Assembly: GCA_001574975.1 (NCBI GenBank)
Contig: KQ965858.1
Coordinates: 1 to 64,000 of the forward strand
DNA: 64,000 bases
Source: Gonapodya prolifera JEL478
Lineage: Eukaryota; Monoblepharomycota; Monoblepharidomycetes; Monoblepharidales; Gonapodyaceae
Reading direction: 5' to 3'
The notes under the pieces are model-generated. The model worked only from the letters and a program-made list of their open reading frames with translations. It did no database searches and had not been told where the DNA came from. A program made the position numbers and the translations under genes. Positions 11,881-63,643 of the stretch are shown one piece after another. How positions within the stretch are numbered: position 1 is the stretch's first letter; each line of letters starts with the position of its first letter.

Positions 11881-11955
11881 GCTTGCTCTTCGTCCCATCG
11901 CCACCTCTACACTTTACATTTCCCAATACACTTTTCATCTCCCTTCCACCTCAAC

Positions 11956-18453: not shown

Positions 18454-21400
18454 TTACACAACCACCATCCCACTTCCAGGCAACGCCGGCAAGTCCTTTG
18501 GCGGCCAGTACTGTGCCTCCATGCTCATGCGGCTGTGGTCGTGGTCCGCACCCAAGTCGAGATGCCCTCCGACGTCACTTTGGACTTCACTCCCATCCAC
18601 CACTTCCATTCTCGGGTCAGAGTCGACGTCCATCCCCTCGTGACCCACCACGATCTCTCCACCCTGCCCAGACTGCACACCAACGTCCCCGGCTTCTCCC
18701 ATGCCAGCGCCATGGCCACCGCCCTCTCCACCACCGCCCGCTGCCAGAGTCGCGCTGATCTCGCCAAGAGTCCTCCTCAGCGCTACCAAGTCCACCGCAC
18801 TGCGAGTCCGCCCGTCGGCATCTGCTTCCTCTGCCACCCCAGTACTATCACCGGGTGCCCTTCCATGAGCCCCACCACCACCACCACCCCTTCCCGCGAC
18901 CGCAGCGGCCGCCGACGCCAACCCCACCAACCCCGCGACTGCACCATCCACCCCACCGTCCGTTTCTGCGCCCGCACCAGCCCCGTCCTGCCCGCCTCCC
19001 TCGGCGCCGCCACCCGAGCCGCCCTCGACGTCCGCAAGCCGCCGCTGGGCCTCGGCGAGCTGCTCCAGAGCCCGGGACCGCGCGGTCTCGAGGTATGCAA
19101 GCCTGGCGTCGCGCTCGCGCTGCTCGGCGGCGAAGGTGCGGTGGGCGGAGCGGAAGAGGCGGCGCACGGCTGCGTTGCGGTGGATGAAGGCGTGGGCGTC
19201 AAACCTCACTCACACGCGACCTCGAAACGACACCATACACGCACCTCCCACGATCTTGCCGTACGCGCCCTCCCCGCCACCCTCGCCTGTTCCCTCCTCG
19301 TCGGCACCCAAGTCCGCAACGTGCAGTCCCAACGCCGCCGCGATGTGCTCGTGCAGCGGCAGTCCCGCCGCGGGAGCGTCGTCGGCGTCCGAGTCCGAGT
19401 CCAGCGAGGCCGTCGCGTTGGGAGCAGGGCGCTGCAGGTGCAGCGGTGTGGCGGTGGTAGGGGTGGTGTGGTGTGTTGGTGAGAGGCTTGATCACACCGC
19501 ACCCCGCCCTGAAACCAAAGCTCACCTCGGCCCTCTCAAACACCCTCGCCATCCCCGGATCCCCCACCGCATAATCCCTTGCCCTCACACCCGCGCGATT
19601 CTCCCCTCCCGGGTCTGCGCCCATGGACAGCAGCACCTCGGCCACGCCTTTATTCCCACCCCTTGCCGCGACCAGAAGTGCCGAATCGCCATTCCTATCC
19701 GCAAAGTCCACAAACGCGGCCACCTCACGCGCCGCCATCCCACCTCCACCTCCCGCGCGGCCCGCGCACCACCGCCGGACGCACCGGGCATAGTACCGCG
19801 CAGCCGCCGTCATGGTCCTCCCACCGCGCCCGCCGGCCGCCCCCGCGAGCGCTAGGTGGTGCAGCACGGTGCGGCCCTCGGCGTCTGCGGCTGGGAGGGA
19901 CGGCGCGAGGCGGCGTAGGAGGGAGGGGAAGCATTGGCGCTCAAATGCGTGCGCGCATTGGGCGGCCCGAATAAGGGGTGTGTGGCCCAGGAGGTTCGGG
20001 AGGGATGGAGTGGGAACGTGCGAGAGGAGGAGCGTGAGCGTGCGGGGGCGGGCGAGCGTGGCGCACCAATGCAGAGCTGTGTTGCCTGTTGGTGCGGTCC
20101 GGGGGGATGGGGGGGGGGGGGGGGTGAAGCCGAATTGTACATGTTGCGTGTGAACAAAACCCCACCACAAACCACCCCCCGACAAAAACCAACGACACGT
20201 ACCTTCCTGATCCAGCATCAAATCCACCACAACCCTCCGTCCCCTCGTCCCCTCTCCGCCATCAACATCCTCGACCGTGAGCATCTCCACAACCCTCGCA
20301 TCGCTCTCCTCACTCTCCTCCAGAAACATCTCCACCAGAACCTCGCGCTGCCTCTCCGCCATCGTCATGCCGGACCACCTGCCTGCAGCGGGGCGCGGCG
20401 TGCCGGGCTGCGGGAGGGGGATGGGGGAGCGGTGCCGCGCGCGTTTGGATGGCGGGTGCGGGGAGTCGACGTCCTCTGCCTCCGCCGAGTGAGAATGTGA
20501 GCCGCCTCGTGGTGTGGGTGGGGGCGAGGAGGATACGGGAGACGAGGACCGTGACGAGCCTGGCGTTGGGGGCGGGAGGGCGGTGCCCAAGGATGGTGGG
20601 GACGCGGGGGGTAATGGACCGGGTCCGTGCGGGTAGGAGAAGAAGCCCGAGGAGTATGTGGCGGGGGGCGGGAATGTGGGTGGGCCTGGCGGGTGGATTG
20701 GAGTGGAGTGGAGTCGCGTAGGTGAGGAATGTAAATTGGTAAGAGCAAGTTGCTTTGAACAGCATGTGCATGTGCAGATCCACAAGCGCAGCCCATCCGC
20801 CTGTCCCTTCACACGTCATTCACCGAGTGTAAAATTCCCGACACTCAAAATTCGCGAAGAATGCGCACGCTGATCCCATCCCATGCACCCTGGGCAATGC
20901 CCATCACCCACACCACAACACACCTCTCTGCCCAATTTGACCCTGCGCGCCACCCCACGCGGGCGTTCCTAGCGCGGACAAGGTGGGATTGTGGTACGCT
21001 TGCTGCTGGAGCGGGTACGGCGGTGAGGTCTGGTACGCGCCATACGCCTGGGCACGGTCGGACCACGCGGGCGAGGACGACGAGGAGGGTGAGAGTGGGC
21101 CCGTCGGCAGCCCCTGTGCCGCCGCCGCCGCCTGTGCTGCCGCCGCCGCCGCCGCAGAGGAGGACGCCGCCGACGCCGAGGGCCGTTTCGGCTGCGCGTG
21201 GTCCCTTGCCGGATCAAAGTCCAGCAGGGGCGCCACAAGGTCTTCGACGCCGTACCGCCGGGCCAAGTCCCGCCCTGAGTCGAGGGGTATCCATGTGCCT
21301 TGGTATTTGCCGTACCCGCCTTGGATTTTTTCGTGGAGGGGGTCTGTGGGTGAGATGGTGAGGGGGAGTGGGGGAGTGGAAGGGGTTAGCGAGGGTGAGG

Positions 21401-22066
21401 GAAGAGAAGCAAGAGCCATGTCCAGCAGATACGCGTATCAAATATTCGCCTCCGGCGGACTTCTGGGTCAGCGCTTAACGGCGCTTAGGTCTCGATATCG
21501 CTCCGCGACGTATACCTCGGTCAGCGGACAGCCTCGCTCCGCGGTGTATTCGCCTCCGGCGGACGCCTCGGTCAGCGCCGGAAGGCGCTGCGAGACGAGT
21601 CCTCCCTCCGCTCGCGTTGCTCGCTCCGGTCGGACACGCACCAGCGAGAACCTCGCGCTCTAGAATCTTTGTGCGTCTCGGCTTTGAAAACCCTGCCACC
21701 TTGAGGATCTGCGTCGCGTTGAGAAAGGCGTCTGACACTCTGCGCATGACCGCGACATCCTTGACGTGCTGGGTGCGTGGGAGTGAGTGGGAGTGAGTGG
21801 GAGTGAGGGGGGTGAAGATGGGTGAAGAGGGTGAGGGGCAACGTAGAGGAGGAGTGGGGGTTCGCAGGAGAAGACGAAGAGAAAGAGCACGAATGCGCAC
21901 CAGCTCATAAACAGGAATATTGGAGTACACGGCGCTGCAAAGGCGAGAGACGACGGCGTGGGGGTGAGCGACGAGCGACGCGAGATGAGCGTGAGGGTGA
22001 GCGTGAGCGTGGGCAGCGGCACAGCGGGGACACGCACGACTGGATAGGCCTATGCGACGCAGACAT
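18454..22066 (-). CDS. mbp1: APSES-domain, ankyrin-repeat transcription factor (Mbp1/Swi4-like)
   Basis: Exons 22038-22066, 21901-21934, 21642-21768, 20924-21343, 20203-20685, 19526-20085, 19245-19431 and about 18454-19207 (the last junction is uncertain). The APSES DNA-binding domain is at the start: [41 protein letters not shown], then [20 protein letters not shown]. Ser/Pro/Ala-rich linkers follow, then ankyrin repeats of the Swi6/Mbp1 type ([47 protein letters not shown]) and a C-terminal coiled coil ([17 protein letters not shown] onward). By family it is the DNA-binding subunit of the MBF/SBF complex that drives G1/S genes in the nucleus. Intron 3 (21344-21641, 298 nt) splits the APSES domain and contains an intron-resident repeat. 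The gene is divergent from THO7 with 228 bases between start codons. Confidence 0.9.
21446..21640 (-). repeat. Intron-resident structured repeat in Mbp1-like intron 3
   Basis: Read in the sense of the host gene it begins right at the donor (GTGCGT), continues GTCCGACCGGAGCGAGC, and holds two core hairpins: AGCGCC-4 nt-GGCGCT (21574-21589) and AGCGC-6 nt-GCGCT (21470-21486). CGCCGGAGGCG modules lie between. The first 33 nt after the donor are shared almost exactly with the ketosynthase intron. Confidence 0.85.
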
Positions 22067-22294
22067 GTGTGGCGCTGCGCTGTGTGTCGCGGTGTGTCGC
22101 GTGATGCGGGTGCGAGGTGCCCGGCGAGCGATGAGGAGCCAAGGGAGGGTGGTGGCCCGTGCGTGAGTGTGGCCGCAGTTTGTGCGACGTTGTTTGTGTC
22201 GCACCCAGACTCGTACGTGAACGACACCGCGTGAGAACGGACAACGACAACGGGAAACGGAGAACGGGAACGCCAACGGAGTCAGCAGCAGAAA
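22067..22294. promoter_or_regulatory. Divergent promoter between Mbp1-like gene and THO7
   Basis: Only 228 bases separate the two start codons, so both genes must share this region. It is rich in GCGTG/CACGC words; no clear TATA box is seen. Confidence 0.6.
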
Positions 22295-25103
22295 ATGGAC
22301 ACGACGATGGCAGACGCGGCCGCGGACACTGTGCCGGACGTCGACACTCCCCTCCCACTCGCACTCGCACATGGCCCGCCATCGCTGCCTCTGAGTATCA
22401 AGGACGACGGTGCGTGCGGCATTCGCGAGCGTGCTGATGCTTTGGTTTTCGTCTCACCCTCGACCAATCCATGTCTCGCTCGTCAACTCTCCCTCCTTCT
22501 GTCATTCCGTCCTCCCTTCTCCCCCACTCAACGACACCCCGACACAAAGACCTGCATAAACACAGACGCGCAGTCGCGGAGAAGCAGCCAAGAATACTCG
22601 CAAAGGCCACGGCCCGGTTCTTTACAAAACTCGCGGATCCTGCGTTCGACCCCGACACGGACCAGTGAGTGACTCGGTAGGATGGGGGTGCGGGGGTACG
22701 GGGGCTGAGCTCAAGAGTCCGCAAGAGGCGTCTGATCCATGATCCTACGTGGGGGTGGAGCGCCAAGTTCCCACACGACCGAGTGGAGTGTGACATACCC
22801 CACACTGAGCGCGTTCCATTGTTTGGGCACCGTTTCTCGTCAGGCGCATGGCATCATACGGCGCCGAGGGAGTGAGCTGCCGAGTGGAGTGCGTGCTGAA
22901 GCCCGAGGTGAAGGGTGAAGAATCAGCGAGGAGTGAATCACGGTGTCATATGCTTCTTATGCGGTGCGGAGCGAAGCTTCTTGTGTTCTTTTGGGTTGGG
23001 GGTGAAAGGGAGCTGAATGGCTATTTCGTCTCTTGCGATTTCATCGCTCCTGTCCCATTCGCCACGGAGTGAGCACCGCGAGCGCGAGCGGAGGAAGGAC
23101 TCCGAGGCCTAGGCGCCGCGAGGACCGAGCGAAGCGACGCTGTCCTTTCTCGGAGTCGGAGTAGCGTCGGGGTGCACGTCTCACTTCTGTCCTATCTCCC
23201 CCCCACACAGCACACTCCTCCTCCTCCTCGACGAGATCGACCAGATGGAAGCCCTGGCCACAAAGTCGCGTCTTGCGCACAAGGCAGCCGTCAGGGAGAT
23301 TGCGTCGTATCATAGGGCAGAGGCGGATGTTGGTGCGTGGGCGGGGGGGGCTCCGAGCGACGGAGGTCTGCGAGCACAGCGAGCAGGCCGGAGGAGCGAG
23401 ACGCGAGGCCGAAGCGCCGATAGGCGCTGACCGAGGCTGTCCGCCGGACGCGAGTGATCCGTGGAGCGGAATGTTCCTCTCGGAGCGATATCGAGGAGTC
23501 CGCCGGAGGAGAATACACAGCGGAGCGAGCCCGAGGCCTAAGCGCGACAGCGCTGACCGAGCTACACGTCGCGGAGTGACATCGAGGCCTAAGCGAGAGA
23601 GCGCTGACCGAGGAGTCCGCCGGAGTGGAATGTTCCTCGCGATCGATCCCGTGTTGGGTTGGGGCTGAGAAGGAAGACGCAAGGGAGCAAGCGAGAGGAC
23701 GGGATGGGAGTGGTGGTGGAGGAAGGAGGGGACAAGATCGGGAGGATGGACGACGAGGCGGGGTGGATGGAAGGATATGGAGTACTGGCGATAAGGACCG
23801 CGAAGAGAATAGCGTCACGATAACCGGATGAAATGTTGGAATGAAGGAGACTGCGTATGATATCGGTCTGAACGACTGCATGGGAATGGAAGGATGGTTG
23901 GAGCAACCCGATGAGTGTTCGCCAACAGGACGGGATGCGGTGGAAGATGGAGATGAAGGCGAAGAGAAACAATTGGGAGAAGGAGGTGGAAAGATGTTGG
24001 AGGATTGCAGATGCGGTCGGTCAGGAGGACCCATGGCAGTGGATGGAAAGGGAAGGCGAGAGGGTCGTAAAGGGACGAGACTCGGTTGCTGGATGGGATG
24101 GAATGGAAAACGAAGGAGGGAGGGAAGTCGAGGACTGCAAAGTGAACCACTTCACGTGAACAGCATCCGACTGACCGACTCGGATGGCCGTCCTGTCTCG
24201 TCTTGGCTCCTCTTCCTCGCTCCTAGGGGCACGTCTTGGCTCTGGCCCCCTTTAGCACCAGCAAACCTAACCTGTTCCCCTCCCTTCCTCCCCCTCCATT
24301 CCTTTCTCTCTCCCCGCTGTCCTCCCACCTCTTCCCCCACGGAGCCTCCCAAATCGACACCGCCCGCACCGACGTCCACATCCTCAACTCCCGCCTCATC
24401 GCTGCGCGGCAAGAACGCCGCAACAGGCTCGAGTACGACGCGGTCGCGAGGCAGGTGCTTAAGTTGCCGTCGAGGGGGGAAATTGAGGGGTGAGTTGTTG
24501 CAGAGGGGGGGGGGAGGAGTACCGTTGAGTGGAGAGGGAATGGGAAATGGGGAATGACAGCCGGGGTGGAAAGGGGTGCGGGTTGGAGTGGTGTTTTCGT
24601 CGGGATGGGGCGGGCGAAGGGCTCTCACAGGTGTGGATATCCGGACGGTTGGACGTCGGACGAGCGCCAAGGCAATGGTGCGCGACGAGGTGCAGGACGT
24701 CGGCCGCTGGCTGATATGAAGGCAACGGGACAGCGCGGGACTGGAAGTCGTTCCGTACACTGGTGTCTCGGTACGCGCCGGACAACTAACGTCCCCCCAA
24801 CCCCCACCGCCAACCTCCAGCCAAACCGCCGTCATCCAAACCAACCTCTCCCAACTGGACGCCGACCTGCGCGCGCTGCACGACGCGTGGGACACCCGGC
24901 GCAAACAGTTCCACCATTTCCTCCTCGCGGGGTACGAGCTTGCCGAGGGTGGGCCCGGTGGGGGCTTGAATGCGGGGGGTGCCGAGGCGGGGGCGGGGGC
25001 GGGGGTGGGAGGCCAAGGCCAAGGGCAAGTGGGGCAGGAAGGACAGGAGACGCAGGAGGAGGAGGAGGGACGGGTGGTTGAGGATGATGTGGCGATGGCG
25101 TAG
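22295..25103 (+). CDS. thoc7: THO complex subunit 7 (THOC7-like), 259 aa
   Basis: Five exons (22295-22409, 22550-22664, 23211-23332, 24345-24489, 24821-25103) give 259 residues. The middle part carries the THOC7 pattern: RAVAEKQPRILAKATARFF, LATKSRLAHKAAVREIASYH, a coiled coil IDTARTDVHILNSRLIAARQ, and after it DAWDTRRKQFHHFLLAGYEL. The C-terminus is Gly/Gln/Glu-rich. By family the protein is a coiled-coil subunit of the nuclear THO/TREX complex, which couples transcription to mRNA export. The introns are unusually large for this window: 140, 546, 1012 and 331 nt. Introns 2 and 3 carry copies of the intron-resident repeat. Some acceptors (AAAG, GGAG) are non-standard but are forced by frame and family match. 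Confidence 0.82.
23041..23165 (+). repeat. Intron-resident repeat in THO7 intron 2 (decayed copy)
   Basis: GAGCGCGAGCGGAGGA, GACTCCGAGGCCTAGGCGCC and GACCGAGCG words match the other copies in order and in the sense of the host gene, but the core hairpin is blurred. Confidence 0.55.
23340..23640 (+). repeat. Intron-resident structured repeat in THO7 intron 3
   Basis: It begins near the donor at 23333. Three core hairpins in sense orientation: AGCGCC-GATA-GGCGCT (23413-23428), AGCGC-GACA-GCGCT (23541-23554) and a weaker AGCG form at about 23592. Each is followed by TGACCGAG and then by TCCGCCGGA modules. The remaining 700 nt of the intron is purine-rich without repeats of this type. Confidence 0.85.
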
Positions 25104-25445
25104 TGTGGTGGTGGATGTCGTGGGTTGGTGGGGTGCGGTGTATATAGGAGGTTTCGGTGACGTGGGACGTGGGATGTGTGGAGGGACTTGAGCGTTTTTG
25201 CAACGGGGGCAGACGTCATGTCGAAGGGAGACAAGGCGAGGCCGACGGTGGACGCTGCGTGAACCGCGCTGCAATTATTTGTTGATACCACTGCATTTTG
25301 TTTTGGGTTGCATGAATAAATGGTTAGCCATGGTTACATTGTATGGAAATTGTTCGTGAAGGGGTGGAGGATGGGATCTAGGGGACGACGCGGACAAAAG
25401 TCATAAAACACATGTAGTCACATAAAACAATATAAATTTTATCCG
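25104..25445. other. Convergent 3' spacer
   Basis: About 340 bases between the 3' ends of THO7 and the GTPase gene. T-rich and A-rich runs (AATAAA-like words at about 25312) suit 3' processing from both sides. No gene seen. Confidence 0.6.
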
Positions 25446-27554
25446 TTAAGCAGCTACGTTCAGGGTGTTTGGCATGATCTGCCGGGCACTAAACAAATGA
25501 AACAACAAGATGAGGATACTGTTTGACACAGCCAAAGTAATCGTGCAAACCTTAAAACGCTGTGTGCGTGTTCGTCAGACATTTTTTGGAGATACTTTAG
25601 ATTGGCTGCCTCGGCAATTCGCTCAAAGTGGTTTTGATGCAACGTAATTGGAACACCCAACGAGTGAACTATTGCCTGCGACGCCTGAATGAACCCGTCC
25701 CACGCTGTCATTCTCGTGGGATTCGTGAACGATCGAACAACATCCGCGACAGCGTTCATCCAAGTTTCGAGATTTGAAGAACGCGAATGATTAACGTTGT
25801 ACATGATAGACCACCATCTCGGGGCCTCTTCCAAGGCAGTTCTGACAGTCGCAAGATGACCTTGGTTTGCAACTATTCTCATGGCGTTGATAACCATCAA
25901 ATCCAAGATGCTGTGAGATGAAAAGAAATAGTGCAAAGTCGGCTCAAGTGTGGACAACCAAGCAGAAACACACAATTGAATAATGATTCCTAAAGGCCCA
26001 AAGCCACTTGCGATGATGGAAGACGGCTTTAAGAGCTAGTACAAGCGGCTGACACCGTCATGGAACTCATCGGTACTCGGGGGGGAACTCACGTACCTCG
26101 AAGATCCTCCGGGCAAGGTACAACCTCGCCTTCAGACCTTGATCTGGATCAAGCCATACCATCTGAAGCTTTCGATCGATGGGAACAGTCTCCAGTAAAA
26201 CTTGTCTGATATCCTCCAACCCGTATCGTTCTGTTTTTAGTCAGAAAAGAATTTACGTTGGCAAGATCACATGTCAAATGTTTGATTCTAAAGCACTTAC
26301 TGTCAAAGTCGGCTATCGGTTCACAGAACAAACCTTCCGGGTTTGACTTTACCAGACCACTTTTGTCGTCAACAGGAAGGCTCTCCACATCCACTTCCTC
26401 CCCGCCAGAAGCATTGTCTGGTTGCCTTGGGTACGCCCATCCTTGTACAAGCAAGCACGAGGGGATAATTCTACGGTCTCCTTTTTTAAACATGCTTGAG
26501 ATGACGGGGATTGGGACGACGTCCTTCGTTGTGTTGCCCGTCTCAATACTAATAGAAGGGCTGTCAAGTATCGTCTGCATTTGAGTCTTGATTTTGATAA
26601 TGGCATCAAATTGTCGCTGCTCAAAAGTATTCAATGTTCTTGTGGTCGCGAGCTGAAATAGTTGAGAAAGTGAATATCTTGAATCACCAACTTGATCGGC
26701 ATGGCTCAGTACCTGAACAATGGGCATTCAGTGACAAAATAACAGGCAGTGCAAACAAAAAGTCGAAAAGGTATCAACTCAACTGCAATAAGCGCTGGAG
26801 ACTCTGTCCGAGTCCAACCAGCATTACAAAAGACCTTCTCAAGGCGTGCAAGTGTATGAAGAACCACGTCTTGCCTAATGTGATTGGCCGAAATGACCAG
26901 GATAACACAGTCTACCCCTTGTGTAAGTTTTTTGATGTCATTAGAAAGAACTAACCGAATCAGGGAGATTTGTCATGGGGAGAGAGTGGAAAGCCCTTAG
27001 CACCCATTCGCACGCGAGTCCTGAATTGTAAACCAACCTTGGCCTGCAGAATCTTTGGGCACTTCTTGAGAATTTGGCGAAGTTGCGCGCACCGATTCTA
27101 GTAGTCCTCGAGTGTCCACCAAGTCCAAGCCAACTTGATTACCATCTTCATGGGGAACTCGAATATGAAGCACTGATCCAGTATGTGTTTGAGATGAACT
27201 GGCGTTTACTTTGCACACGTATTTTCCAAACATGCAGTTGATGAGTGCGCTTTTCCCGGATCCAGTGGGTCCCACGACGAGAATCGTTGGAAATGGCTTT
27301 TTAAGAAGACTTTCCATGGTGTCGAGATTTTCCTTTGAGTGTACGAGGATGTGATTCGTGGTTTTTAGTCGTGTTGAGACCAAACTCTGATCACGAAAAC
27401 CGTCCGCACAAACCTTAGCCGTCCTTGCTTCCTGGCTGTCTCCACGAGAATACCAGTGTTGATGAAGGAACCTAACAAAGCTTGGCAGGATGGCATTCTG
27501 GAGTGCTTCCTGGCCCTGCGAAAGAGCATGATCCTGGACAGTTGATCCCATCAT
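25446..27554 (-). CDS. P-loop GTPase of the septin/AIG1/IRG-like superfamily, about 550 aa
   Basis: Exons 27038-27554, 26784-26950, 26301-26712, 26097-26230 and 25460-26035, with a possible last splice to a stop at 25446. G1 is GPTGSGKSALINCMFG (about residues 94-109), G3 is LDLVDTRGL, and a G4-like motif VLSHADQ lies after VILVISANHI. A long helical C-terminal region follows without a recognised domain. It belongs to the TRAFAC-type GTPases that act as switches; the substrate process is unknown. The second donor (GTTGAG) and the first (GTTGGT) are unusual but restore frame and the G4 motif. A single hydrophobic stretch near FGPLGIIIQL could touch a membrane. Confident as a GTPase, not as to which one. 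Confidence 0.75.
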
Positions 27555-43405: not shown

Positions 43406-46400
43406 TCACTCTGTCTTCTCCCACCCAATCACCTGTTCTGTCTTGTAATATGTGCCGCGCTGTTGAATCATGCTGTACGGCCTAAGTGGAGACACGTCAA
43501 GTTCCGCGGGGAGATGACCGCGAGTAGAAAGACTCACTTGGCATTGGGATATGGGAAATCGGCGTACCCAATGTCACCCTCGTCGTCAGGGACACTTTCC
43601 ACGATAACGTGAGCGTTGGTACCTTTGATATCGACACAACACACCGGGATTCTCAGTTGCTCCGGCTTAAGGTCTCATCACAACCACCACAACTCACCAC
43701 CAGCGCCGAAACTATTCACCCCGCATCGCACAACACCATCACGCCTGGGCAACTTGGTCATGCCCTTACCCGGGCAAATCCGAATCTCGTCAGGGGGCAA
43801 AGGCACGCTTTACGACGTGACGGCATGAGACCGAAACGCCCGAACACCGGCGCTCAAAAACCACAACTTACTCGGTCCTCGGACTCGTGAAGTGCACCAA
43901 CGGCGGCGCCTCGCCGTGCCTCGCGATAAGAAGCGCCTTGAGCATGGACGTGATCCCCGACGCCGCCTCGGAATGACCTTTTGCGAAGCCCGCCCATCAG
44001 CACACGGTACATCCACACCACCCCCACACCGCACGAAGCACCACTCAAACTCACCATACAAGCTCTTGATCCCGCCCACAAGCACGCCGGTCCCGCCTCT
44101 GGGCTTCGCCTCCTCCCCGCCGTACACGGCCGCGATCGTCTGTAGCTCGCGTTTGTCGCCCGCCTGGGTGCCCGTCGCGTGGAGCTCGACGTAGTCCACG
44201 GCGTGCGGGGCGAGCCCCGCGCGCTGGTGGGCGAGGCGGAGGACACGGGATTGGCCGTCGAGCTGGGGGTGGGTGGAGGTGTGGTGGGTGGGTTGACGAT
44301 GCCGTGTGAGATGAAGGGGGACAAAAAGAGAGGGAGCGTAACGTTCACTCACGCTAGGCGTGGCCATTTGCCTCCCTGTGCGTCCGTTATGTCCCGCCGC
44401 GGAGCCCCTCACGATACCCAAAATCCTGTCTCCGTCCCTCTTCGCAGCGCTGAGCCTCTTGAGTACAAAAGCGACCTGGCGTCGTAACGAACGATAGTGC
44501 GACGTACCACAACACGTGAGCGTTTTCCACCACACGAGCAGCAACGCTAGAAACCCACCGCGCCTTCTCCGCGGGTGTAGCCGGTAACGTTGGGCGTCAG
44601 GACAGGGCTATGGTACGTCGGGCTCAAAATCCTGAGGAGATCGATGTGGGCGTATGAGGACTAGTCGCCGCGAGGTAGTGTGAGTGTGAGTGTTGCTGAC
44701 GGGGGAAAGCAGAGAGGGGAGCGTGCGACTCACGGGGTTGGTGATCACGTTCACACCCGCCGCGATAGCGGTTTCGGATTCGTGAGACAGGATGGATTGG
44801 CAGGCGTAGTGGACGGCGGCTTATGGTGGTGGCGGTTGGGTGGGGGTTGGGCGGGATGGCAATTGGCGATTGATTACGCGGCGGAGGGTGGAGAGCGGCA
44901 GTCAGTCCCACACCACACCACCCGCATCTAACCCCCACTGAACTCACTCAAACTGCCCGAACACGCCGTGTCGACATTCACGCTCGGGCCCGACAGGCCC
45001 AGGCAGTGCGAGACGCGGTTCGCGATGGAGAAGGGTAGGTAGCCGAAGTTTGAGGTTGGGGTTGCGGGGTTCTGAGAGGGCGTGGTGTGTCAGTGCGTGC
45101 CCGCTTGGCACTCGATCCGTCCGGCCGAGCTGAACGACCCTCGACCACTCTTTCGTCGAGCCACGCTCAACATTCGCTCCCTCCATACCCAAACAACCAA
45201 CCCCAATGTCCAACCTCGCACACCCCCCCGTCCCCCCACCCGCCGCACAAACACACCTGCAACGCCACACTCGCCGCATCCGCGACCCCCACACCGACGC
45301 CCACGAACACGCCCACCTCCGCGCGCGCGGCAGGCACGTAGCGGGTCGAGGGGTCCCAGTAAGGGTTTGAGGTGGTTGTGGTGGTTGAAGAGGAGGTGGA
45401 GGTGGAGGGACGCGGTGTGCCGGCGTTGAGGAGGGATTCGAAGCATACGAGGAGGGCGAGGCGTTGGTGGGGGTCTGTGTGTTTTGGGGAGTGGGATAGG
45501 AGGGTCGGGATTGTCAACGGATGGTAAGGTATTCAAACAGTGCGTCTCGCAAGAGACGTGCGAACGGCGGCGTGAGAGAGCTTCTTCCACAACAAGTCCA
45601 ATTCCAAGTCCAATGTGGTGACCTCTCTGTTCTGCTTCGAATCCCGCTCCATTTCACTTGGCTCCATGAAAAACTTCAACTCCAATGGCGTGCAGAGTCT
45701 GCTTCACTCCCTACACCGTGATCCTTCGGGCTTGGGCCTTGTTCTCGTTCCGTTCCGTTCCGCGAGAGTATTCCCCTTCGCGACTGGATCATTCGCCTCC
45801 GGCGGAGGATTACGCTGTGTGTGGGACCGTCGCCTCATTCAGCACTCTCGCTCATTGGCCTCGAACTCGGACTCGCTCTGCGAGGGTATTCCGCTTCGTG
45901 CGGTGTCATTCGCGCTCCGCGGCACATGGAGTACGCTCCGCGAGAGTACATTCCGCTTCGCACTTAATCATTCACCTCTGGCGGACGCCTCGGTCAGCGC
46001 TTCGCGCTTAGGCCTCGAAGACGTCCCTCCGCTCGCGTTGCTCGCTCCGGTCGGACTGACTCACCCATGTCAAGAACCTCCTGCTCTGTCAAATGGAAAA
46101 ACTCTGGGTCAAACTTCTCGAGCTGGTCATCCGACAGAAAGGCGCCCCGGGGCAGTTTCTTCTTGTTGGTCAGCTGTGCCGGGTCCGCCGGGTTTTCCAT
46201 TGTGGTGTCGGCAGGCGCGGGAGCGATGTTTGTGTTCCATCGCTTGTTGGGGGCTGGCGAGAATATGGGCTCGCCGGCAGACAGGATGCGCCAGAGATCG
46301 TCGGGGGAGTTGGCCGAGGGCAGGCGGCAGGACTGGCGTGGAGTTGTGGTGGGTGGTGGGGGTTGGAACGAGAGAAACAGGGCGAGGGAGGGATGAGGAG

Positions 46401-47093: not shown

Positions 47094-50000
47094 ATGGTCC
47101 ACATCAAGGCCGCGTCGTCGGCATCGCTGCCAGACGCGCACGTCAACTGCGCGCACTTTGTCTTCAACTCACCTTACCTTGCCGGTGAGGACCTCGACGC
47201 CAAAACGGCCATCATCGTGAGTACTCTCCGTCCACACCCTCTCCCCCGCTGCTCTCCTCCTGCCCCCGCCGGATACCCCCGTGGCCCCACCCTCCTTTCC
47301 GTCACCATCGGGAACCGCCCTTCTCTCCTCTCTCCCTATCGACACTCGACACTCCTCGGAACAAACACGATTGGCTCATTGGTGACCTTCGTGACCACTC
47401 TGGACCTACGATGGCACCGCCCTGTGTTTCTTTTTTATTTTGGCCAATGGGAGACATGATCAGGGGCAGGGCCCGCTTTGCTTGACGCATATGATGGTCA
47501 CTCCAGAGAGAGAGAGCACGGATGGACCCAGTCAAAAAGGGAGATTTCACGGGATTTCACAGACTGAACTGAACCGTCTGCTGATGTGTTCCCGCCCACA
47601 TTCGGCATGGAAGGACTTGAGAGATTCTCATCGGGATTGTTTGCAGACTGGACTGAACCACATTATTCGTTGCGGAAGGACTCGGTTCTCAGCGGGATTG
47701 GTCACAGACTGAACCGTCTGATGATGTGTTCCCACACATTATTCGTCGCGGAAGGACTCGGTTCTCACCGGGATTGGTCACAGACTGAACCGTCTGCTGA
47801 TTTGCTCCCCACATGATTCTCAATTACCGGAAGGACTCGGTTCTCAGCGGAATCGGTCACAAACCGGATCGCCTGCGTCACACGACTGACCTGCCTGCTC
47901 ATGCATCCCACACCGTTCCCACCCCCCACCACCACCACCCGCAGGACCCCACCACATCCACCCGCCTGACCTACGCCCGTCTCTTCCACCTCGCACGGAC
48001 CTTCTCCCGGGGCCTTCTCGCCTTATTCCCCTCCGCCGTCCCCTCCTCCACCCCGTCCCCGTCTCCTTCCCCCGCTGGCACTCCCACAAACCGCATCGTG
48101 ATCACGATCTTCTCCCCCAACGACATCCTGTACCCCGTCGTGTCACTCGGCGCCATACTGTGCAACGACTACCTCGAGGGAAACGGCATGGGACGGGACT
48201 GTGTCGTCGTGAGCACGACCAATGCGGCGTTGACGAGCTATGAGTGCGCGAGCCAGTGGGGTGAGTTTTTGTGGGGAGGGGGGGAGGGGGGGACGGGGGG
48301 AGTGGGCTTTTGGAGGTGGGAAAGGCAGTGGTCGTGGTGTTTGGGATGGGGGGAGATAGACTGGAATGGATCTGAGGGTCGGATGGTCGTAGAAGTGGAA
48401 GTTACTGGCACCACGCCACCAAATCTTTCGACGAGGGAAGGCGATGGTGGTGGTGTTCGGGATCGCGTCATGGGGGGGGGGGGGAATGGGTGCGGTTTCG
48501 GTCTGATTGTCTCTTTGGCTGGGGACCTGGAAGTTGGAATGGAATGGATATAAGTCGGATGGACGTCGGAGAGGACACATAGACTGCCACGACACCAAGT
48601 GAAAGATATCTCATTTGCGCCCATGGGACCTTCTCGAAACGAGTCGAGCCGGACCTGGACTGTTTAATTGTCATCGGAAGTCGTCTTCTCACACCAACAA
48701 CCCTTTTCCCCCTTCCCCACTCCCACTCACACTCCCAGCCTCAACCTCGCCCGCCCTCCTGGTCGCGCACCCGTCCCTCCTCCCACGCGCGCGCGACGCT
48801 TGGTCCAAACTCGGCCGCGACTCCTCCACCATCATTGCTCTCGACGCCCCCGGGTGGTGCGTGGAGGATTCCCCGCCCGCGGGGCAGTACGACGCCGCGG
48901 CGGAGAGCGGCAAGAACGGCGAACGCACGATGGCGGAGGTCCTGCAGGCCGGCATGGCCGCTGCTCAGCGTGGAGCGGTGGCGCCGGCGGCGGAGTCGGA
49001 GTCGGCGGCAGTGCCCCACACCAACGGGACTGCCAACGGGATGACCAACGGGGCGACCAACGGCACGGTCGCCCACCCGCCGCTCCCCTCCCCCACGGCC
49101 TTCATCCTGTTCTCCTCCGGCACGACGTCGGGCAAATCCACCCCCGTGCCCATCACGCACCGCAACATCGTGTCCACGCTTCGGTCCCTTGTCGGAGCCG
49201 AAGTTCTCACCCCGCAGCGTGACGGTGAACCCGCGATAAGGCCCAAGAAGGATGTTGTTATGGTACGTGTGTGTGTGGTACGGGGGTTGTTGTGGACATG
49301 GGGACGTGGGGCTCATAAAGTTGCTGGACTCGGTCTCGTGTGCAGGGTGTGGTCCCGCTGTTCCACGCGTTCGGCATGTTCAATTTGTGCTTTACGTCGT
49401 TGTATTCCGTGAGTCTTTTGCAACTGTTCGGTGCCCTATCGTTTTCACATCAAGCACCTCGCGCAGGGCCTTACCATCGTCCTCTTCTCAAAATTCGACG
49501 CCAATCGCGTCGTGGACTCGATTGACGAGTTTAGCGTTAACATCGGTTTCGGTGCGTTTCCTGCCCCGGCAGGTGTGGTAATAGAGGGGCACGTCTTACT
49601 TTCAAAACTGACGTGTTTGTATTGTGTCGTAGTCGTGCCGCCCATGCTGCTCATGATGACCCGCGTCATGGAAAAGGTAAGCTTCATCTCTGCTCCCTTC
49701 AATTACCCCACCACCAACATACTCCCATTCGCTCACCCCCAGCGCACCACCAACTTTCATCCGACCCTGCGATGGCTCCAATCCGCTGCAGCTCCGCTCC
49801 TGGGCGAAGTCATCGCTGGCGTGCGAAGAGTGTTTGATCGCGATGTGTTGCGAAACGGGTTCGGGATGACGGAAATCGTGGCGACCATGATCGCCACTGG
49901 AGTCGGGGGTGAGTTTGTGAGCAAGAAAATGGTTCATTGGTCCCGTGCTGACACTTTCCCGTCCCCCGCCACCTCTGATCCGCTCCAGAACCCCTCTCGG

Positions 50001-50937: not shown

Positions 50938-51212
50938 AGGTGGTGAGACAAAGGATGAAAAATGCGGATATGTTATTTTATTGGAGGTCGTCGGTTCGTA
51001 AGTTTGGTGAGATCGGATATCGCAGTATATCATGATGGTTTGCATTTATTGAGTGGTGAACAGAAAGCAAATACGAATTCAAACATTCTATCACAGAATT
51101 GAATTGAATACAACAATTGCATTCATTGTTTCAGCTTTGGAGTTAGACTGACATGATACCGGACTGAAAGAGTCCAAGAAAGAAAGGGGAAACGAACAAA
51201 CTCCCGATCATT

Positions 51213-56867: not shown

Positions 56868-57040
56868 GCTGGCCGCATGGTGGTTGCTGCATAATGTATT
56901 TGAGTCAATTTCTTGTGTTTGTTGCAATAATGACATTGCAAATGCGAACGAAGCGGCCCGTTTGTCAACTGTGCCTGCCTGTGCCCCCACTCTGTGGCCA
57001 TCACCTCCCTCATGTGCACCATTTCCCCGACAAAGCAGTA

Positions 57041-58086
57041 ATGCCCACGTATCCATTCTACCAAATCGATGCCTTCACATCGACTCCGCTCGGGGGAAAT
57101 CCATGCGCGGTCATCATGGACTGCCGCGACCTTTCTGACGAAACACGTCTCCGCATTGCAAAGGAGAACAATCTGTCAGAGACGGCGTTCGTGTACAGGC
57201 CAGAGCCTGAAGACGGGGACGCTGACTGGGTCGCGCGCTACTGGACACCAGCGGAGGAGATTCCCCTTGCTGGGTGAGTCTTCACAAGGACTTCCGGGCA
57301 TTGCATTCCTGGAGCTCATGCCACACAATCTCACTTTCTCTTATTGCTTCATCATTCTCTCGCCCTAAACCAAAAAGTCACCCCACGATCTCAACCATCC
57401 ACGCGCTCATCGACACAGGCCGCCTCAAGCTCACACCATCACTCACCGTCGTCCGTCTCGCACTCAAAGTCGGGATCATCCGCGTAGAAGTGTCCAGCAC
57501 AGGGCCCACAGCCAAGGACGTACGCTCCATCGTGATGTACCAGAAAAAGCCCCAGTTCCTCTCCACCCACGACCCCTCCGACGTCCTCCCGGCGTTCGGT
57601 CTCCCCCTCGACGCGTGTGCGCCGGGTTACCCGATCCAAACCGTCAGCACAGGCACGCCGCAGCTCATGGTATTCTTGAAGGACGCCGAAACGCTCCGCC
57701 GCGCCGTGGTTGATGTGCCTCGCTATGCCGCTCTCCGAGCCCGAGCACACTTTTTCTCCCCGCACCTGTTTGTCGCCCGCGGAGCAACCGAGGCAGGACA
57801 CACATTTGCGCGGCATTTTGGCGTCCCGCCAGATACGATGGAGGATCCCTTCACGGGCAGCGCGACGGGCGGGATGGCAGCGTACCTTGTGAAGCATGGC
57901 GTCATTCCCACAACAGTAGGGTCGGATGGGAAAAAGGTCGCGATGTTCAAGGCCGAGCAGGGGCACGATATGGGTCGGCCCGGAGAGGCGGACGTGCAGG
58001 TTGTGGTGGGAACGGACGACGACATCGAGACTGTTGCGGTTGGTGGGACCGCGGTGACGATTATTCGGGGTGAATTATTGCTTTAG
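57041..58086 (+). CDS. PhzF-family isomerase, 313 aa
   Basis: Two exons, 57041-57273 and 57378-58086, give 313 residues, the usual PhzF size. Start MPTYPFYQIDAFTSTPLGGN; the catalytic-Glu motif NNLSETAFV; then TPAEEIPLAG joined across the intron to HPTISTIHAL; and EDPFTGSATGGMAAYLVKHG in the second half. PhzF proteins have a diaminopimelate-epimerase fold. Bacterial PhzF isomerises a phenazine precursor, while most eukaryotic members have no proven substrate. No other phenazine gene is nearby. Part of its 3' end is duplicated at 60935-61057. Confidence 0.92.
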
Positions 58087-59196
58087 TGACTTGTAGAAGT
58101 GACTGGCACAAAACGAGAAATTATAACTTTTGATAGAGAGATGGAAAGGGCTTGGTTGGTTGCGCGGCGGGGTTCCAAACATCGGGGACAGAGTACACAA
58201 GTATATTGAGGATTCCGTCCTGAGTAGACTTAAAATGAAGATACAGCATAATGACCTGCTTTTGCGTGTGATTGCGGGTGTTGGGGGCCTGTGTTCAACA
58301 TTCCACCTGCACATGGGCGATTTGGGACGCTCGGGGACTCAGAGGAAGAGACAAGGAGAAAAGAGGTGATTCTGCAACATTTCCACTCTTATTGGAGCCT
58401 CCGGAAGCAATATCACTGAAGCATTTTGGACATTATGAAGATGTTTAATTTATTTCGAAATCCAGGAGACCTCTTTTGGAGGCTTGCCATTTAGTCGACC
58501 ACCCAGGAAAAACCAGGTGGAAGGAGGTGGAAGGGAGAGCAAAAGGTCTTGTGAGTCACCGGGAGATGCCAAGAAGCTACCCTTGCACCTTTTCAGACTT
58601 GAAATTCAATTGAGAGCCAAAGGCGACAAGAGAGAACGCAAAACTTTACTTGCAGAACTCATTCGATGTATAAATATCTCGGTAATGGCTCAATTTAAGC
58701 TCATGCGGCTAATTCATCCTCCAACGACTGGCAATTTCATTGGAAATAATGGCGCTAGCTATACCAAACTCATACCAAAAGGAATTGAGTAACTAATCTA
58801 TGTAATTGACTTCTCGAGTTGTAGTTTTTGCAACGTCGTACATTAATCTTTGAGACGGCACGACGTCAGAATGATAAAATGCGTTTGGATCCCGGCTCAC
58901 CCTTTCTCCCTCAGAAACCCTGACACCCCAACATTCCACCAAGCGACCACACACACCAGCAGCACCATCGAACAGCAAACCCTTACTACTGGCTCAGGCG
59001 GTCCACGCGCCCTTTTCGCCCACTCCCGCGCCTTTTGCCGAATTCGTACGCCTCGTCATCATCGTCCATCTCCGCAAACCCATCTGTCCGGACTCGCCCT
59101 CCCATCCAACCCTGTCCCTTGTTCACATCGACCCGAACATCGCCGCTCGCTGCCCCAACCCGCCTCGTCGATTCTGACAGTCCATCGCCAATAATT
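58087..59196. other. Intergenic, nothing secure
   Basis: 1.1 kb. A 102-codon plus frame at 58484-58792 is Lys/Arg-rich with no domain. A Ser/Pro-rich frame at 59036-59196 runs in frame into the RING gene start and may be 5' UTR or coding. Confidence 0.45.
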
Positions 59197-60678
59197 ATGC
59201 TGAGCTCCTCCATTGGCGCCGACAAGCGTAAGTGATGCTGTTGAAAGTTCGAGTTTCGCCATTTTTAACATTGATTGAACGGGTAGCCACACAAGAGAGA
59301 GCTATTACTCTGGAGGAGAAAAGCGCCGTGCTTCAGTATGTACTCACCGTGGACGAGCACCCGACATTGTGGACCTTCAAGCAATATTTGAAGCCTCTGG
59401 AGGCCAAGTGCATTGTCGGAGGAGTCGCGAAAGGGATGTACGTCGACGCCGGAATTGAGGTGGGTGTGTAGGGTGCCTCGGGTTGCGCTGGGGGTTTGAA
59501 AAGAAGAAATGGAGTGGGAGTGCTTGGAAGCTTCCGTACCAAATGCTGCCATTATGTGGTTTAACAGAGGGGCAGTTGCGGGGTACCGGGCCAGTCTTCG
59601 CCTAACGTGGTTTAACGGTGGCACATGGGGACTGGAGAACAACCCTCGAGAAGAGTTCTTGCTTCGAGTAATTCGGGGTGCAAGGGGGTGGGCAGGAATC
59701 TCTCCGGATGGGTCGAGGAGTTAAAACGCTGGATTGTTTCTGCATTTTCTGTTTCTTTTTTCGTGGAGTTGGAAGCTGATGCAACAAGCATCAAACATAA
59801 CCCCGATGGCATCTTAACCACCCGGTGCATTTCATAGAAGGATGAAACCGCCGGGTCTGACGCGGCTGTCGGCGAAGGTGCATCAACGCTTGTCGGCAAT
59901 GACGACACAGAGACCGAGACCCTGGCTGGTGATATCGCTGATGGTGGCGACGATCAGGTAGGCTTTTTCTTCTAAAGAGCACTCTTCAGAGTTTTAAGAA
60001 GAAAATCAGGGATCTACCCGCATTTTGGGAAGTCTTCTCAATCTCATTGATGTTGCTCCCTCAGGTGCTGACTCTGTCCGCGAGTCACCAGCCGACCGAT
60101 CTATGTGTTGCAATCGCAACACAAGTCCCCTACGGCGGCGATCGCTTGAGTGACGAGGACGCTGTGAGTATGTTGGATACCTTCTCCCCCATTTCCCTTT
60201 GAATTCCCAATATTGATCTCTGTCCTTACTAGGAAATGTAGGACTGCACCGAGACCAACGAATTGGCCCATCTGAAGAAGAAAAACCAGAGGTTTGCCCA
60301 CGCAGTGCTGACCGCGCAGGGCAACCGACTCGGGAAATGTGTGAGTATATTCGTTGATGTCGTTTATTGGCAACTTTGAAACCTGCCGTTAGTCGGCTTG
60401 CAACGACAACCTGTGGTCAGCGTTCACCCACGTCTACGATCCTTGGTACGTCCTTCATGGTCACTTTCGCGTTCACCTCTTATAGCAAATTTTTAATGAA
60501 AACGTCGTGATGTGTATCACAGTGGCCATCTTGTGTGCTCTGGCTGTGCTGGCGAACTGTTCTGCAATCAGTGTGACTGTACTGCTGCAAGCTCCGTGAG
60601 TGATAATCCACCACACTGCTCAATGCGTTGGTGCTTATATGTTTTCTTTCTTAGATCGAGATCCAGCCGATCATATAG
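59197..60678 (+). CDS. Small RING-finger protein, 223 aa
   Basis: Eight exons: 59197-59227, 59287-59459, 59838-59957, 60065-60163, 60242-60340, 60393-60445, 60523-60595, 60655-60678. The N-terminal part is helical (AITLEEKSAVLQYVLTVDEH) with a stretch EAKCIVGGVAKGMYV, then an acidic linker. The C-terminus carries a C3HC4 RING built from four exons: KCSACNDNLW, YDPCGHLVCSGC and FCNQCDC, with all eight metal ligands. It ends IEIQPII. RING domains usually serve as E3 ubiquitin ligases; no substrate module is recognised. The start at 59197 could be further upstream (an in-frame Ser/Pro-rich stretch is open). Confidence 0.8.
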
Positions 60679-61255
60679 TGCCGCGACTGTGTGCGTCATT
60701 CCAAAGCACCCACTCCATATACTGTAGATCCAATCTTATCATGCACACACTTTTCCAGTGTCTGGGTACGCGCTTCTTTTAAAATTTGCAAAACAAATCG
60801 TCTGTAATCTTTTTGAAAACATGGTATTGAATCACCGATTGACTCCAAAGAATTTGGGTAAACTGCAGAGCTATTCCTACTCCAATCTAATATCACACCC
60901 TTGTTACGTTTATCCCTTTGTAAAACCTGCAGTGTGAATGGACGAATGACAACAAGATCGAGACTGTTGCGCTTGGTGAGACGGCGGTAAAGATGATTTG
61001 GGATGAAATATTGCTTTTTTGACTTGTGATGGGAGTGGTGGCTGGCGCAAAATGAAAAAGTATTTATGTGACAGGGAGATGAAGAATGATAGTGTGGGCA
61101 GTGAGTCTTCTCCTCACCTCACATCAATCACTCAAACGAGTCACAAGCGATCATCATTTTGCGTCCCCAACGTTGCAAAAAATGAAGCCTGTCACGCCGT
61201 CACTACTCGATCGAGCTCCCCAGGAGATTATTGCAGGTGAAGCCCGATAGGATGA
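60679..61255. other. Intergenic region carrying a PhzF 3'-end fragment
   Basis: About 580 bases. No gene besides the fragment described separately. AT-rich at 60780-60930. Confidence 0.55.
60935..61057 (+). pseudogene. Duplicated 3' end of the PhzF gene (fragment)
   Basis: About 100-120 bases match 58011-58120 including the stop region: ATCGAGACTGTTGCG, GGCGGT, then TATTGCTTT, TGACTTGT and GGCGCAAAATGA follow in the same order in both. The piece encodes only the last 30 or so residues in altered form and has no start, so it cannot work. Confidence 0.75.
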
Positions 61256-61696
61256 ATGACGTCCGGTTCCCATCACCGAAATCCGTCTCTCCCAGACGCA
61301 AAGACCTCTCTGGTCCCTCCAAACGGCCGCAACGCGCCTGCTTCAAATGTACAGGAAGAAGAGGAGGACGAAGCCAAGGATGTGATCCCAGACGAGCCGT
61401 GGTCGTCGGAGCAGCGTGGCCTGGACATCGCAGACGACGTGCGTCCCGACATTCCAGACGAGCCGTGGTCATCTGAGCAGCGCTCTGGGGACGATTTCAG
61501 TCCTGCTCAGTCTGAGATCCCGGACGAGCCGTGGGCGTCGGAGCAGCGGGGAGTGGACGGGACGGGTGCGGAGAGGAAGAGCACGCCCCGTGGGGAGGTG
61601 GGAGGAGACGAAAAGCAGGAGCAGGAGCAGAAGGAAAACGAAGAGGAACAGGAGGAAGTTGACGAAGTGGGGCTATTTTACATTGCCAAATTGTGA
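61256..61696 (+). CDS. Acidic protein with three IPDEPWSSEQR repeats, 146 aa
   Basis: Open frame from ATG 61256 to a stop at 61694-61696. The centre has three near-identical units, IPDEPWSSEQRG, IPDEPWSSEQRS and IPDEPWASEQRG, 19 to 24 residues apart, followed by a Glu/Gln/Lys-rich tail. Ser/Thr/Pro-rich start. No domain known to me. It could be an exon of a larger gene. The exact amino-acid repeat, with many codons also conserved, argues that it is or was coding. Confidence 0.5.
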   Translation: MTSGSHHRNPSLPDAKTSLVPPNGRNAPASNVQEEEEDEAKDVIPDEPWSSEQRGLDIADDVRPDIPDEPWSSEQRSGDDFSPAQSEIPDEPWASEQRGVDGTGAERKSTPRGEVGGDEKQEQEQKENEEEQEEVDEVGLFYIAKL

Positions 61697-62034
61697 AGGA
61701 GTCGCGGTGCAATAATGCTCAGTGTGTTGTCATGTGTGAATCAAAATGCACTTTTCAGTTGACTCCAAATTTGCCCTTCCTCCCCCGTCCCGGCCCCCCC
61801 ATTCTGTGGGCATCATCGTATGACCTGGTCCGAATCCAACGCCCAATGCCCAACACCCAACGCTTCTTACGAATCAAATCTACCCCCCAAATTGCCGCCG
61901 CCTCAGAATACACCCCACCTCGTCAAGTTGCTGTAGTGCACAAGTCCCGCTACAATGCCCAACCCTCAAATCTTCATACGAATCAAATACACCCAAGTCC
62001 TAAAGGTCCCCGCCCAACCACCACATTCACCACC
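61697..62034. other. Convergent 3' spacer
   Basis: About 340 bases, C-rich, with a loosely repeated TACGAATCAAAT word (about 61870 and 61978) and CAATGCCCAAC (about 61839 and 61952), suggesting a diverged 110-bp tandem duplication. No gene. Confidence 0.5.
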
Positions 62035-63643
62035 TCACTTCTTCCCTCCCCTATGCGCGACGGTCGCGGTCCCCTGCGCGGTGGGCATGACGAGCATTTC
62101 GGCAATCACGACGTTGTCCGGTCGTGACGCGGCGTAGAGGATCGTGTCGGCTGTGAAGGAGAAGTGGGATTGGGGGTGGAAGTGGTGTGAGTGCGTGTGA
62201 GAGGTAAAAGACAGGCAGGCGACACAAGGGTGGCAAGAGGTAAAGGATAATTCGTCTCAGGCGGACTTCTCGATCAGTGCTCCGCGCTTAGGCCTCGCGC
62301 CGCTTCGTGGAAAGATCGCTCCGCTATGAATATTCTGCTCCGCAGGAACTTCGCCTCCGGCGCACGCATCGGTCAGTGCTTTCGCACTTAGGCCTTGGCG
62401 TCCTTGCTCCGCTTATATCCGTATCCTCGGTCAGCGCTTTCGCGCTTAGGCCTCGGTACTCGCTCCGCTCGGACGGCGTCGCTCGACAACACCCACCAAT
62501 GTCACCGGCACTCAGGGGCTCCATGCCCTCGTACACCTTATCCGCCCTGTCCTTATCCCCACTAAACCTAACAACCGAAAACTCGGTCTCGACCATCCCG
62601 GGCTGCACCTCGGTGACGCGCACACCGGTACTCATCAACTCAATCCGCAAACTTTGGGTCGCGGCGTTGACGAAATGCTTTGTCCCGCAGTACACAGACC
62701 CGTTCGCGTAGGCCTCGCGCCCGGCAATACTGCCGAGGTTGATGACGTGCCCCCGGTTGCGGGCGAGGAAGATCGGGAGGATGGCCTGCGTGACGTTGAT
62801 GAGCCCCACGACGTTGGTCTGCAGCATCGTGTGCACGGCTTCGGGAGAGACGGTGGATAAGGGGTCGAGTCCGATCACGAGGCCGGCGTTGTTGAGCTGG
62901 CATGGCATGCATGGGGGATGGGATGGTATGGGTGGTCAGGGGTGGTGGTCGTGGTGGCCAACAAAAGGGAGGGAGGCAAACTTTGTCGTCCATCGATGTA
63001 CGCCTCCGGCAGAGGTATACGCTCCGCGTAGGACAGTCGCCTCGGTCAGCGCTATCGCGCTTAGGCCTCGGGTTCGCTCCGCGGATTACTCGCCCCCGGC
63101 GGACAGCCTCGGTCAGCGCCTAGCGGCGCTTAGACCTCGATGCACGCTCCGCGTGATGGTCTCGGTCAGCGCTATGGTCTCGGTCAGCGCTATGGCGCTA
63201 AGGCCTCGGAGTCCTCCCTCGGCTCGCTCCAGTCGGACCGCTCGCCGCTCACCCACCCAACCCCGACCACCACCTACCAAGATGTCGACGTCTTTCAACT
63301 CCGCGGGCAGCTCCTCGACGACTCTAAACACGGCGGCCCTGTCCTGGACGTCCAACTGCGCCGAGTGGACAATCGAAGAGGGAAACTCGTCGCAAATCTG
63401 CGTCTCCAATTCTTGCAATCTGTCCTTCCTCCTGGCGGTCAGGATGACATTTGCGCCGTGCCGAGCGAATTCAAACGCGGTTGCCTGTCCGATGCCGCTG
63501 CTTGCGCCCGTGATGAAAGCTGTCTTTCCCTTGAGACGTGAGTAACCCGACAGCGAGGAGTGCAGTCTGTGTGGCGTGGATGCGGCGGCGAGCGGGTGGC
63601 GGAGACATGTGCGCAGGGCGTGTGGGGCAAATCGCACGCTCAT
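62035..63643 (-). CDS. Short-chain dehydrogenase (YMR226C/YdfG 3-hydroxyacid type), 293 aa
   Basis: Three exons, 63278-63643, 62497-62896 and 62035-62150. The N-terminus is Arg-rich without acids and looks like a mitochondrial presequence. Cofactor motif KGKTAFITGASSGIGQATAF; NNAG joined across intron 1; catalytic Ser in INLGSIAG and Tyr-Lys in SVYCGTKHF; VRVTEVQPGMVETEFSVVRF; last exon ADTILYAASRPDNVVIAEML. The best family match in my memory is yeast YMR226C and bacterial YdfG, NADP-dependent enzymes that oxidise serine and 3-hydroxy acids. Both introns (381 and 346 nt) contain the intron-resident repeat. Confidence 0.92.
62262..62490 (-). repeat. Intron-resident structured repeat in dehydrogenase intron 2
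   Basis: Near the donor (GTGGGT at 62496) in sense orientation. Core hairpins: AGCGC-GAAA-GCGCT (62433-62446), a compensated form AGTGC/GCACT (62375-62388) and a wobble form at about 62275-62288, each beside GGCCTAA and TGACCGA or a close variant. Confidence 0.88.
63001..63245 (-). repeat. Intron-resident structured repeat in dehydrogenase intron 1
   Basis: Core hairpins AGCGC/GCGCT with 4-nt loops at about 63048-63061 and 63186-63199, and a six-pair form AGCGCC/GGCGCT at 63115-63130. A 19-base piece (GGTCTCGGTCAGCGCTAT) is doubled at 63158-63195. The 5' module GTCCGACTGGAGCGAGC sits next to the donor side. Confidence 0.88.

Follow-up and report, generated by a model that had tools for sequence, protein, structure and literature searches.

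The 64,000-nt stretch analyzed here (the window; positions 1 to 64,000 of contig KQ965858.1), which belongs to the 47.56 Mb, 207-contig assembly of Gonapodya prolifera JEL478 (Monoblepharomycota), raises the question of why one family of hairpin-bearing repeats should lie inside introns and read in the direction of its host genes. Does such an element create the introns in which it resides, or does it occupy introns that already existed? We consider it probable that a dispersed, non-coding, modular repeat has colonized existing short spliceosomal introns of this fungus. A sequence-only reading of the window had described the repeats as structured, sense-oriented and confined to introns, and had brought forward introner-type insertion and selection on transcribed structured RNA as possible causes. 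The host is reported to have the highest intron density among 263 fungal species (4.5 per kb), and the same source interprets the intron pattern of the Chytridiomycota as the retention of ancestral introns (PMC8476143). By term count, the main text of the paper on this genome is silent on introns (PMC4494064).

Five introns of the window carry clear copies, each in the sense of its host gene and each already picked out by the sequence-only reading. Intron 3 of an Mbp1-like gene (APSES/ankyrin; 298 nt, 21344..21641, minus strand) holds element motifs at 21446-21635, among them the 5' module S at 21619-21635, which begins at intron position +7, directly after the donor hexamer. THO7 intron 3 (1012 nt, 23333..24344, plus strand) contains motifs at 23404-23629 in the module order LTBHGBLTLTB; an example of the M1 hairpin core, GGCCTAAGCGC-GACA-GCGCTGACC(G) with a cGNNAg-type loop, lies at 23535..23559 on the same strand. 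In the ketosynthase gene, the motifs occupy 45770-46056 of a 590-nt intron (45475..46064, minus strand), with S at 46040-46056 after the donor GTGAGTCA. Intronic and sense placement hold for this copy in our predicted gene model, in which the intron numbered earlier as the second is the third. Both dehydrogenase introns (minus strand) are occupied: intron 2 (346 nt, 62151..62496) at 62247-62474 with a core hairpin at 62428-62452, and intron 1 (381 nt, 62897..63277) at 63000-63238 with core hairpins at 63043-63067 and about 63181-63205. The automated cluster call in intron 2 (62252-62717) overshoots by 243 nt because of a weak motif within the next exon. The decayed copy proposed for THO7 intron 2 (22665..23210, plus strand) is visible near the 3' part as a single motif, L, at 23103-23116 (+), with similarity over 23083-23117. 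The claim that no copy lies between genes or in exons of the window holds for intergenic DNA, where we found no cluster, but a single weak motif (6929-6942) falls in a predicted exon.

The gene models underlying these assignments came from a two-strand hidden Markov gene finder, self-trained on the 324 kb sample described below, with an intron-length penalty against merging neighboring genes. The predicted THO7 and dehydrogenase proteins are identical (100%, full length) to NCBI records of G. prolifera, and THO7 introns 2 and 3 and both dehydrogenase introns are thereby confirmed. Support for the Mbp1-like model comes solely from APSES-type homologues; no record named Gonapodya appeared among the 120 matches listed of 1713 in its protein search. 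The dehydrogenase has a counterpart of 74% identity in a relative, Gonapodya sp. JEL0774. Pfam families were matched by all ten predicted proteins submitted, and in seven of them one or more element introns fall within the domain span as printed. The element intron of the EF-hand protein lies outside the span, and for the carrier and HlyIII-type proteins the span printed covers just the best of several stretches. The models are imperfect, as one acceptor in the gene at locus L013 and exons at L030 were misplaced.

Intron confinement and sense orientation extend beyond the window. Genome-wide, the 25-nt core has 214 matches (108 + 106) at up to 3 mismatches as opposed to none (0 + 0) for the reversed control. 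Sites were picked from the first ~100 places listed, and placement was tabulated in 324 kb made up of the window and 40 regions around core sites on contigs C2-C43 (20 each of 10 kb and 3 kb), in which clusters were called from six module motifs. The six-motif set gave 398 matches in this sample against 31 in the same sequence reversed, and 62 strong clusters against 1. The gene finder assigned 56 of the 62 to introns in sense orientation, two to introns in antisense orientation, three to intergenic DNA and one mostly to a predicted exon. Upon re-reading these six exceptions, we dropped L013:6397-6497 by eye as a spurious weak pair, leaving 61 clusters: 56 sense, two antisense (L029 and L046), two intergenic (L024 and L027) and one unplaceable at a locus edge (L035:2874-2993). 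L030 was also re-read individually, and the flanks of sense calls were inspected among 20 printed sites; the remaining sense calls are those of the gene finder and include weak ones, such as L022:8534-8691 (two motifs, 31% in a predicted exon). Eight 3-kb loci (L001-L008) are outside all counts, and all but L001 overlap sequence already counted. The ratio of 56 to 2 gives a binomial p = 1e-14 if the clusters are independent, and some of them share a gene. Abundant extra-intronic or antisense copies were looked for throughout the 324 kb and were not found, which confirms the observation of an intronic, sense-oriented repeat as a very strong though not absolute rule. The two antisense intronic copies (L029:1485-1653 and L046:1485-1532) reside in genes that encode, to judge from the sequence, a CitE-like protein and, apparently, Sec61-beta.

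In the 224 kb not centered on selected sites, the window included, the gene finder labels 26% of the sequence as intergenic and 34% as intron. The 160 kb outside the selected sites contain eight clusters, one of them judged spurious, or about one per 23 kb, from which a rough extrapolation leads to a genome total of roughly 2,000 copies. Among the confident introns of these 160 kb and the window, the element is carried by none of the 89 shorter than 250 nt as opposed to 8 of the 28 longer ones. Element introns also lie earlier in the gene (0.29 vs 0.47, p = 0.012), a difference that element-centered sampling may cause.

Within the introns, copies consist of short hairpin modules, often the 5' module S followed by LT-B-H-G units, placed between the donor and the branch-point/acceptor tail. 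Cluster-holding introns whose two neighboring exons each have a coding score above 5 (n = 42, including the antisense case L029) have a median length of 355 nt as opposed to 110 nt for confident element-free introns (n = 174). Across 48 element introns, the shared similarity begins at the donor (median -1), with the donor consensus as one contributor, and breaks off 96 nt (median) short of the acceptor, leaving 3' tails that are mostly unshared. The residue outside the shared span (97 nt) is about the size of a normal intron. Module S (GTCCGACCGGAGCGAG) was sampled independently of the core at 20 sites, comprising 19 exact 17-mer matches outside the prior loci and L068, which was already known to follow a donor; two of the sites (L064 and L065) apparently stem from a gene duplication. 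Within the 75 nt upstream of S, 19 of the 20 sites have a donor above threshold, compared with 4 of 20 in the control. At 7 of the 20, S begins at intron position +8, which lies 7 nt from the first base of the donor and one base past the hexamer. When L068 is set aside, the counts become 18 of 19 and 6 of 19. Two whole introns (381 and 622 nt) used as genome queries produced, apart from themselves, only partial matches of up to ~300 nt at 69-97% identity (61 and 64 matches reported; 40 of 387 and 40 of 465 candidates scored), and none of the non-self matches listed reached the last 104 of the 381 nt or the last 216 of the 622 nt.

Introns of the sampled loci and the window are G-rich in their first 60 nt (skew about +0.3) and C-rich in their last 60 nt (about -0.5), with the element present or absent. 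One intron tail (L036, intron 1170-1619) contains a run of more than 60 G, perhaps an assembly artefact.

Paralogous genes bear on whether the introns owe their existence to the element. We compared four gene families, namely aldo-keto reductases (AKR), short-chain dehydrogenases (SDR), P-type ATPases and carriers, leaving out the paralog introns of C103 at the first AKR site and of C43 at the second SDR site. The AKR element introns of 450 and 211 nt are matched at the identical codon by paralog introns of 63 and 73 nt, and of 65 nt, respectively, and the SDR element introns of 330 and 183 nt at the same position by paralog introns of 67 and 67 nt, and of 116 nt. No module motif was found in these six AKR and SDR paralog introns (63-116 nt). 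An element-free intron thus exists at the same position for all four element introns tested, in two gene families. The element was therefore either added to pre-existing introns or lost cleanly from the paralogs, and in both cases, judging from the sequences compared, the existence of the intron is independent of the element. In the closer paralogs of the P-type ATPase and carrier families, both copies bear arrays in all 3 introns compared. In the P-type ATPase introns (421 and 236 nt), the last 168 nt are common to both paralogs at 86% and, by eye, so is the 5' start; the two differ by an internal block of modules. The arrays in one carrier intron are still alignable (77% over 332 nt); those in carrier intron 1 (328 and 434 nt) are present in both paralogs and have no detectable similarity to each other. 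Carrier intron 1 at L074 (808-1020) holds a 47-nt module-bearing unit in 4.5 head-to-tail copies with 95% matches, which is a recent local amplification. As the paralog alignments indicate, the arrays gain, lose and amplify modules in situ.

The structured character ascribed to the repeat was borne out by its hairpin modules, which obey a loop rule described for DNA. Extraordinarily stable DNA mini-hairpins have GNA or GNNA loops, with any nucleotide as N (PMC4686876). Among the perfect hairpins of 55 element introns, triloops (n = 176) were GNA in 91 cases and TNC in 3, with 90 of the 91 GNA loops closed by C-G (closure was counted for triloops only), and tetraloops (n = 104) were GNNA in 52 cases and TNNC in 4. 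The corresponding GNA/TNC and GNNA/TNNC counts were 10/5 and 5/7 in one shuffle, and 3/4 and 1/7 in element-free introns. The hairpins of the 55 element introns thus follow the mini-hairpin rule of a GNA or GNNA loop with C-G closure, and decayed copies depart from it. The third position is a pyrimidine in most element tetraloops, in contrast to the GNRA loops of RNA. Because several distinct modules obey the rule, it is apparently built into the source element.

What, then, causes the orientation and the scarcity between genes? The element bodies (11.5 kb) have 46 strong acceptors in antisense and 1 in sense, and antisense copies just after a donor would therefore probably disturb splicing. 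At 20-200 bp from exons, human SINEs are biased toward the sense orientation, and a proposed cause is selection against a cryptic acceptor that antisense Alus carry (PMC3088655). Such a load of antisense acceptors can account for the orientation, not for the intergenic scarcity. One might suppose that an ordinary non-autonomous repeat inserts anywhere and that selection alone removes exonic, antisense and most intergenic copies, an account to which the acceptor counts and the human SINE bias would both lend themselves. However, intergenic copies should then persist, and only 2 of 61 clusters are intergenic against 26% of the sequence; the placement of S exactly one base past the donor hexamer in 7 of 20 sites also speaks against it. 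We regard selection alone as unlikely. The intergenic deficit therefore favors insertion coupled to transcription or splicing, and the interval between donor and branch point could be the place where an intron of 65-110 nt tolerates an insert.

Introner-like behavior was another candidate, in which each copy would be a whole mobile intron, spread by reverse splicing or transposition and making a new intron wherever it lands. The sense-only, gene-confined distribution and the similarity that reaches the 5' splice site would suit it, as would the similarity that comes within 22 nt of the acceptor in 5 of the 48 introns; moreover, fungal introners have been described without target site duplications and terminal inverted repeats and with a bias toward genes (PMC9860276). 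However, the shared part typically stops well before the acceptor, neither whole-intron query reached a tail among the 40 candidates scored for each, and the paralogs keep an element-free intron at the same codon in four of four cases. Intron creation of the introner type, as brought forward by the sequence-only reading, is thus largely refuted and, in our judgment, highly improbable. A third possibility, that the hairpin chains are functional intronic RNA kept to compact long introns or to aid donor use, would fit the donor proximity, the sense orientation and the module hairpins. It would also fit the covariation of the outer M1 stem pair, for which 14 compensatory changes were counted against a shuffle mean of 4.3 and a maximum of 11. 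This alignment (102 distinct sequences) is loose and includes chance matches, the other four M1 pairs stay within the shuffle range, and the covariation is weak evidence because a single pair of five exceeds every shuffle and chance members are present. Mispairs in the M1 stem were G.T in 30 and A.C in 32 cases, about equal, so that no sense-strand tolerance of G.T is seen in this stem. The absence of the element from all 89 confident introns below 250 nt, with 8 of 28 longer ones carrying it, and the full turnover of array content in one of the three paralog introns compared argue against such a function as well. Selection on structured RNA thus finds little support beyond the outer M1 pair, and we consider a functional RNA very unlikely.

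Colonization of existing introns has points against it in turn. Loops drift at all positions, the first G included (in the 100 of 105 B matches listed and in 49 M0 matches), so that the loop rule describes consensus modules rather than maintained copies. The sense strand has the more stable predicted RNA fold in 27 of the 55 element introns, that is, without a strand difference, a result that also disfavors a functional RNA, and the predicted DNA and RNA energies of one unit were no better than those of shuffles. No common 3' end motif was seen in the element introns, neither a fixed 3' end nor a target site duplication was defined, and the five introns with similarity close to the acceptor belong here as well. 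Element loss in the AKR and SDR paralogs is possible in principle, because two of the four families carry the element in both paralogs. Finally, the gene models are mostly our own predictions, and the intergenic deficit may be inflated if intergenic DNA was called intron. We had also tried each copy as a maintained RNA and dropped this candidate, as purifying selection at the loop ends was not seen in the same B and M0 matches.

Colonization nevertheless remains the reading that we prefer, and a mechanism can be outlined for it. Antisense copies would be purged, their strand carrying many strong 3' splice sites, and insertion would be coupled to transcription or splicing, as the near absence between genes suggests. 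The spreading form is proposed to be single-stranded sense-strand DNA, in an R-loop or as a copy intermediate, because the module types share sense-strand cGN(N)Ag hairpins; the G-rich intron starts, together with the sense-strand DNA hairpin rule, may likewise point to single-stranded non-template DNA. New modules might be gained via template switching between arrays. The spreading form and the template switching are the least certain steps. Taken further, one could tentatively imagine a class of nuclear single-stranded DNA elements whose insertions go into the non-template strand of transcribed introns, immediately beside the 5' splice site. Such elements would recognize or form chains of cGN(N)Ag mini-hairpins, grow by template switching, and lengthen ancient introns while creating none; that such a class exists strikes us as rather doubtful at present.

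Known systems share some of these properties. Introners and fungal introner-like elements (PMC4457414, PMC9860276) resemble the Gonapodya element, as described there, in being dispersed, gene-confined, sense intronic sequence, and gene-confined sense placement was indeed found (56 of 61 clusters sense intronic). However, the Gonapodya element lies inside an older intron, whose 3' end is mostly not part of it, and same-site introns exist without it; similarity typically does not extend to both intron ends, nor was an intron seen, in the paralogs compared, to be created where homologues have none. The main text of neither paper mentions Gonapodya. Bacterial REP/BIME palindromes with RAYT transposases, in the accounts available, are alike in their short hairpin modules, mosaic arrays and high copy number. 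REPs are extragenic and BIMEs alternate in orientation, whereas the Gonapodya modules lie in introns and almost all share one orientation, with neither extragenic placement nor alternation as the pattern. Mitochondrial double-hairpin elements are GC-rich and mobile. Likened by description only, they share the dispersed non-coding hairpins, and the Gonapodya element differs in being nuclear, intronic and oriented. Alus are also common between genes. Intronic Alus and other SINEs near exons offer a likeness in the sense bias, with the antisense cryptic acceptor suggested as its reason, but the human bias is described as partial (PMC3088655).

The impression that the element bears no established name agrees with Rfam, in which the sole match in the window at gathering score is a tRNA gene at 3035-3106, and 62150-63300 had no match at E <= 5; a decayed SINE ancestry could escape both searches. 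Among the matches listed for titles and abstract beginnings of open-licence PMC papers, there was no description of this element.

Introners are the usual explanation for intron gain, and generic transposons the usual one for intron growth. In Gonapodya, a single family seems to keep, in one orientation, to the stretch between donor and branch point of introns that already existed. The high intron density of this fungus has been taken as ancestral intron retention (PMC8476143). The family is a clear example of introns growing longer in an oriented manner while none is gained, and one that intron-end screens might overlook; those that require similarity at intron ends, as described in PMC9860276, may well miss the Gonapodya element. 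Whether transcription or R-loops direct insertion could also be examined with this element, and the antisense copies at L029 and L046 would show whether antisense placement disturbs splicing.

Two further repeats were noted in the window. At 8913-13237, tandem gene-like blocks have a mutual identity of 62-88%, and at least two of them resemble each other in their predicted exons. At 47612-47875, within the long intron 1 of a predicted gene, a 48-nt tandem unit occurs four times (60-98% identity with the reference copy).

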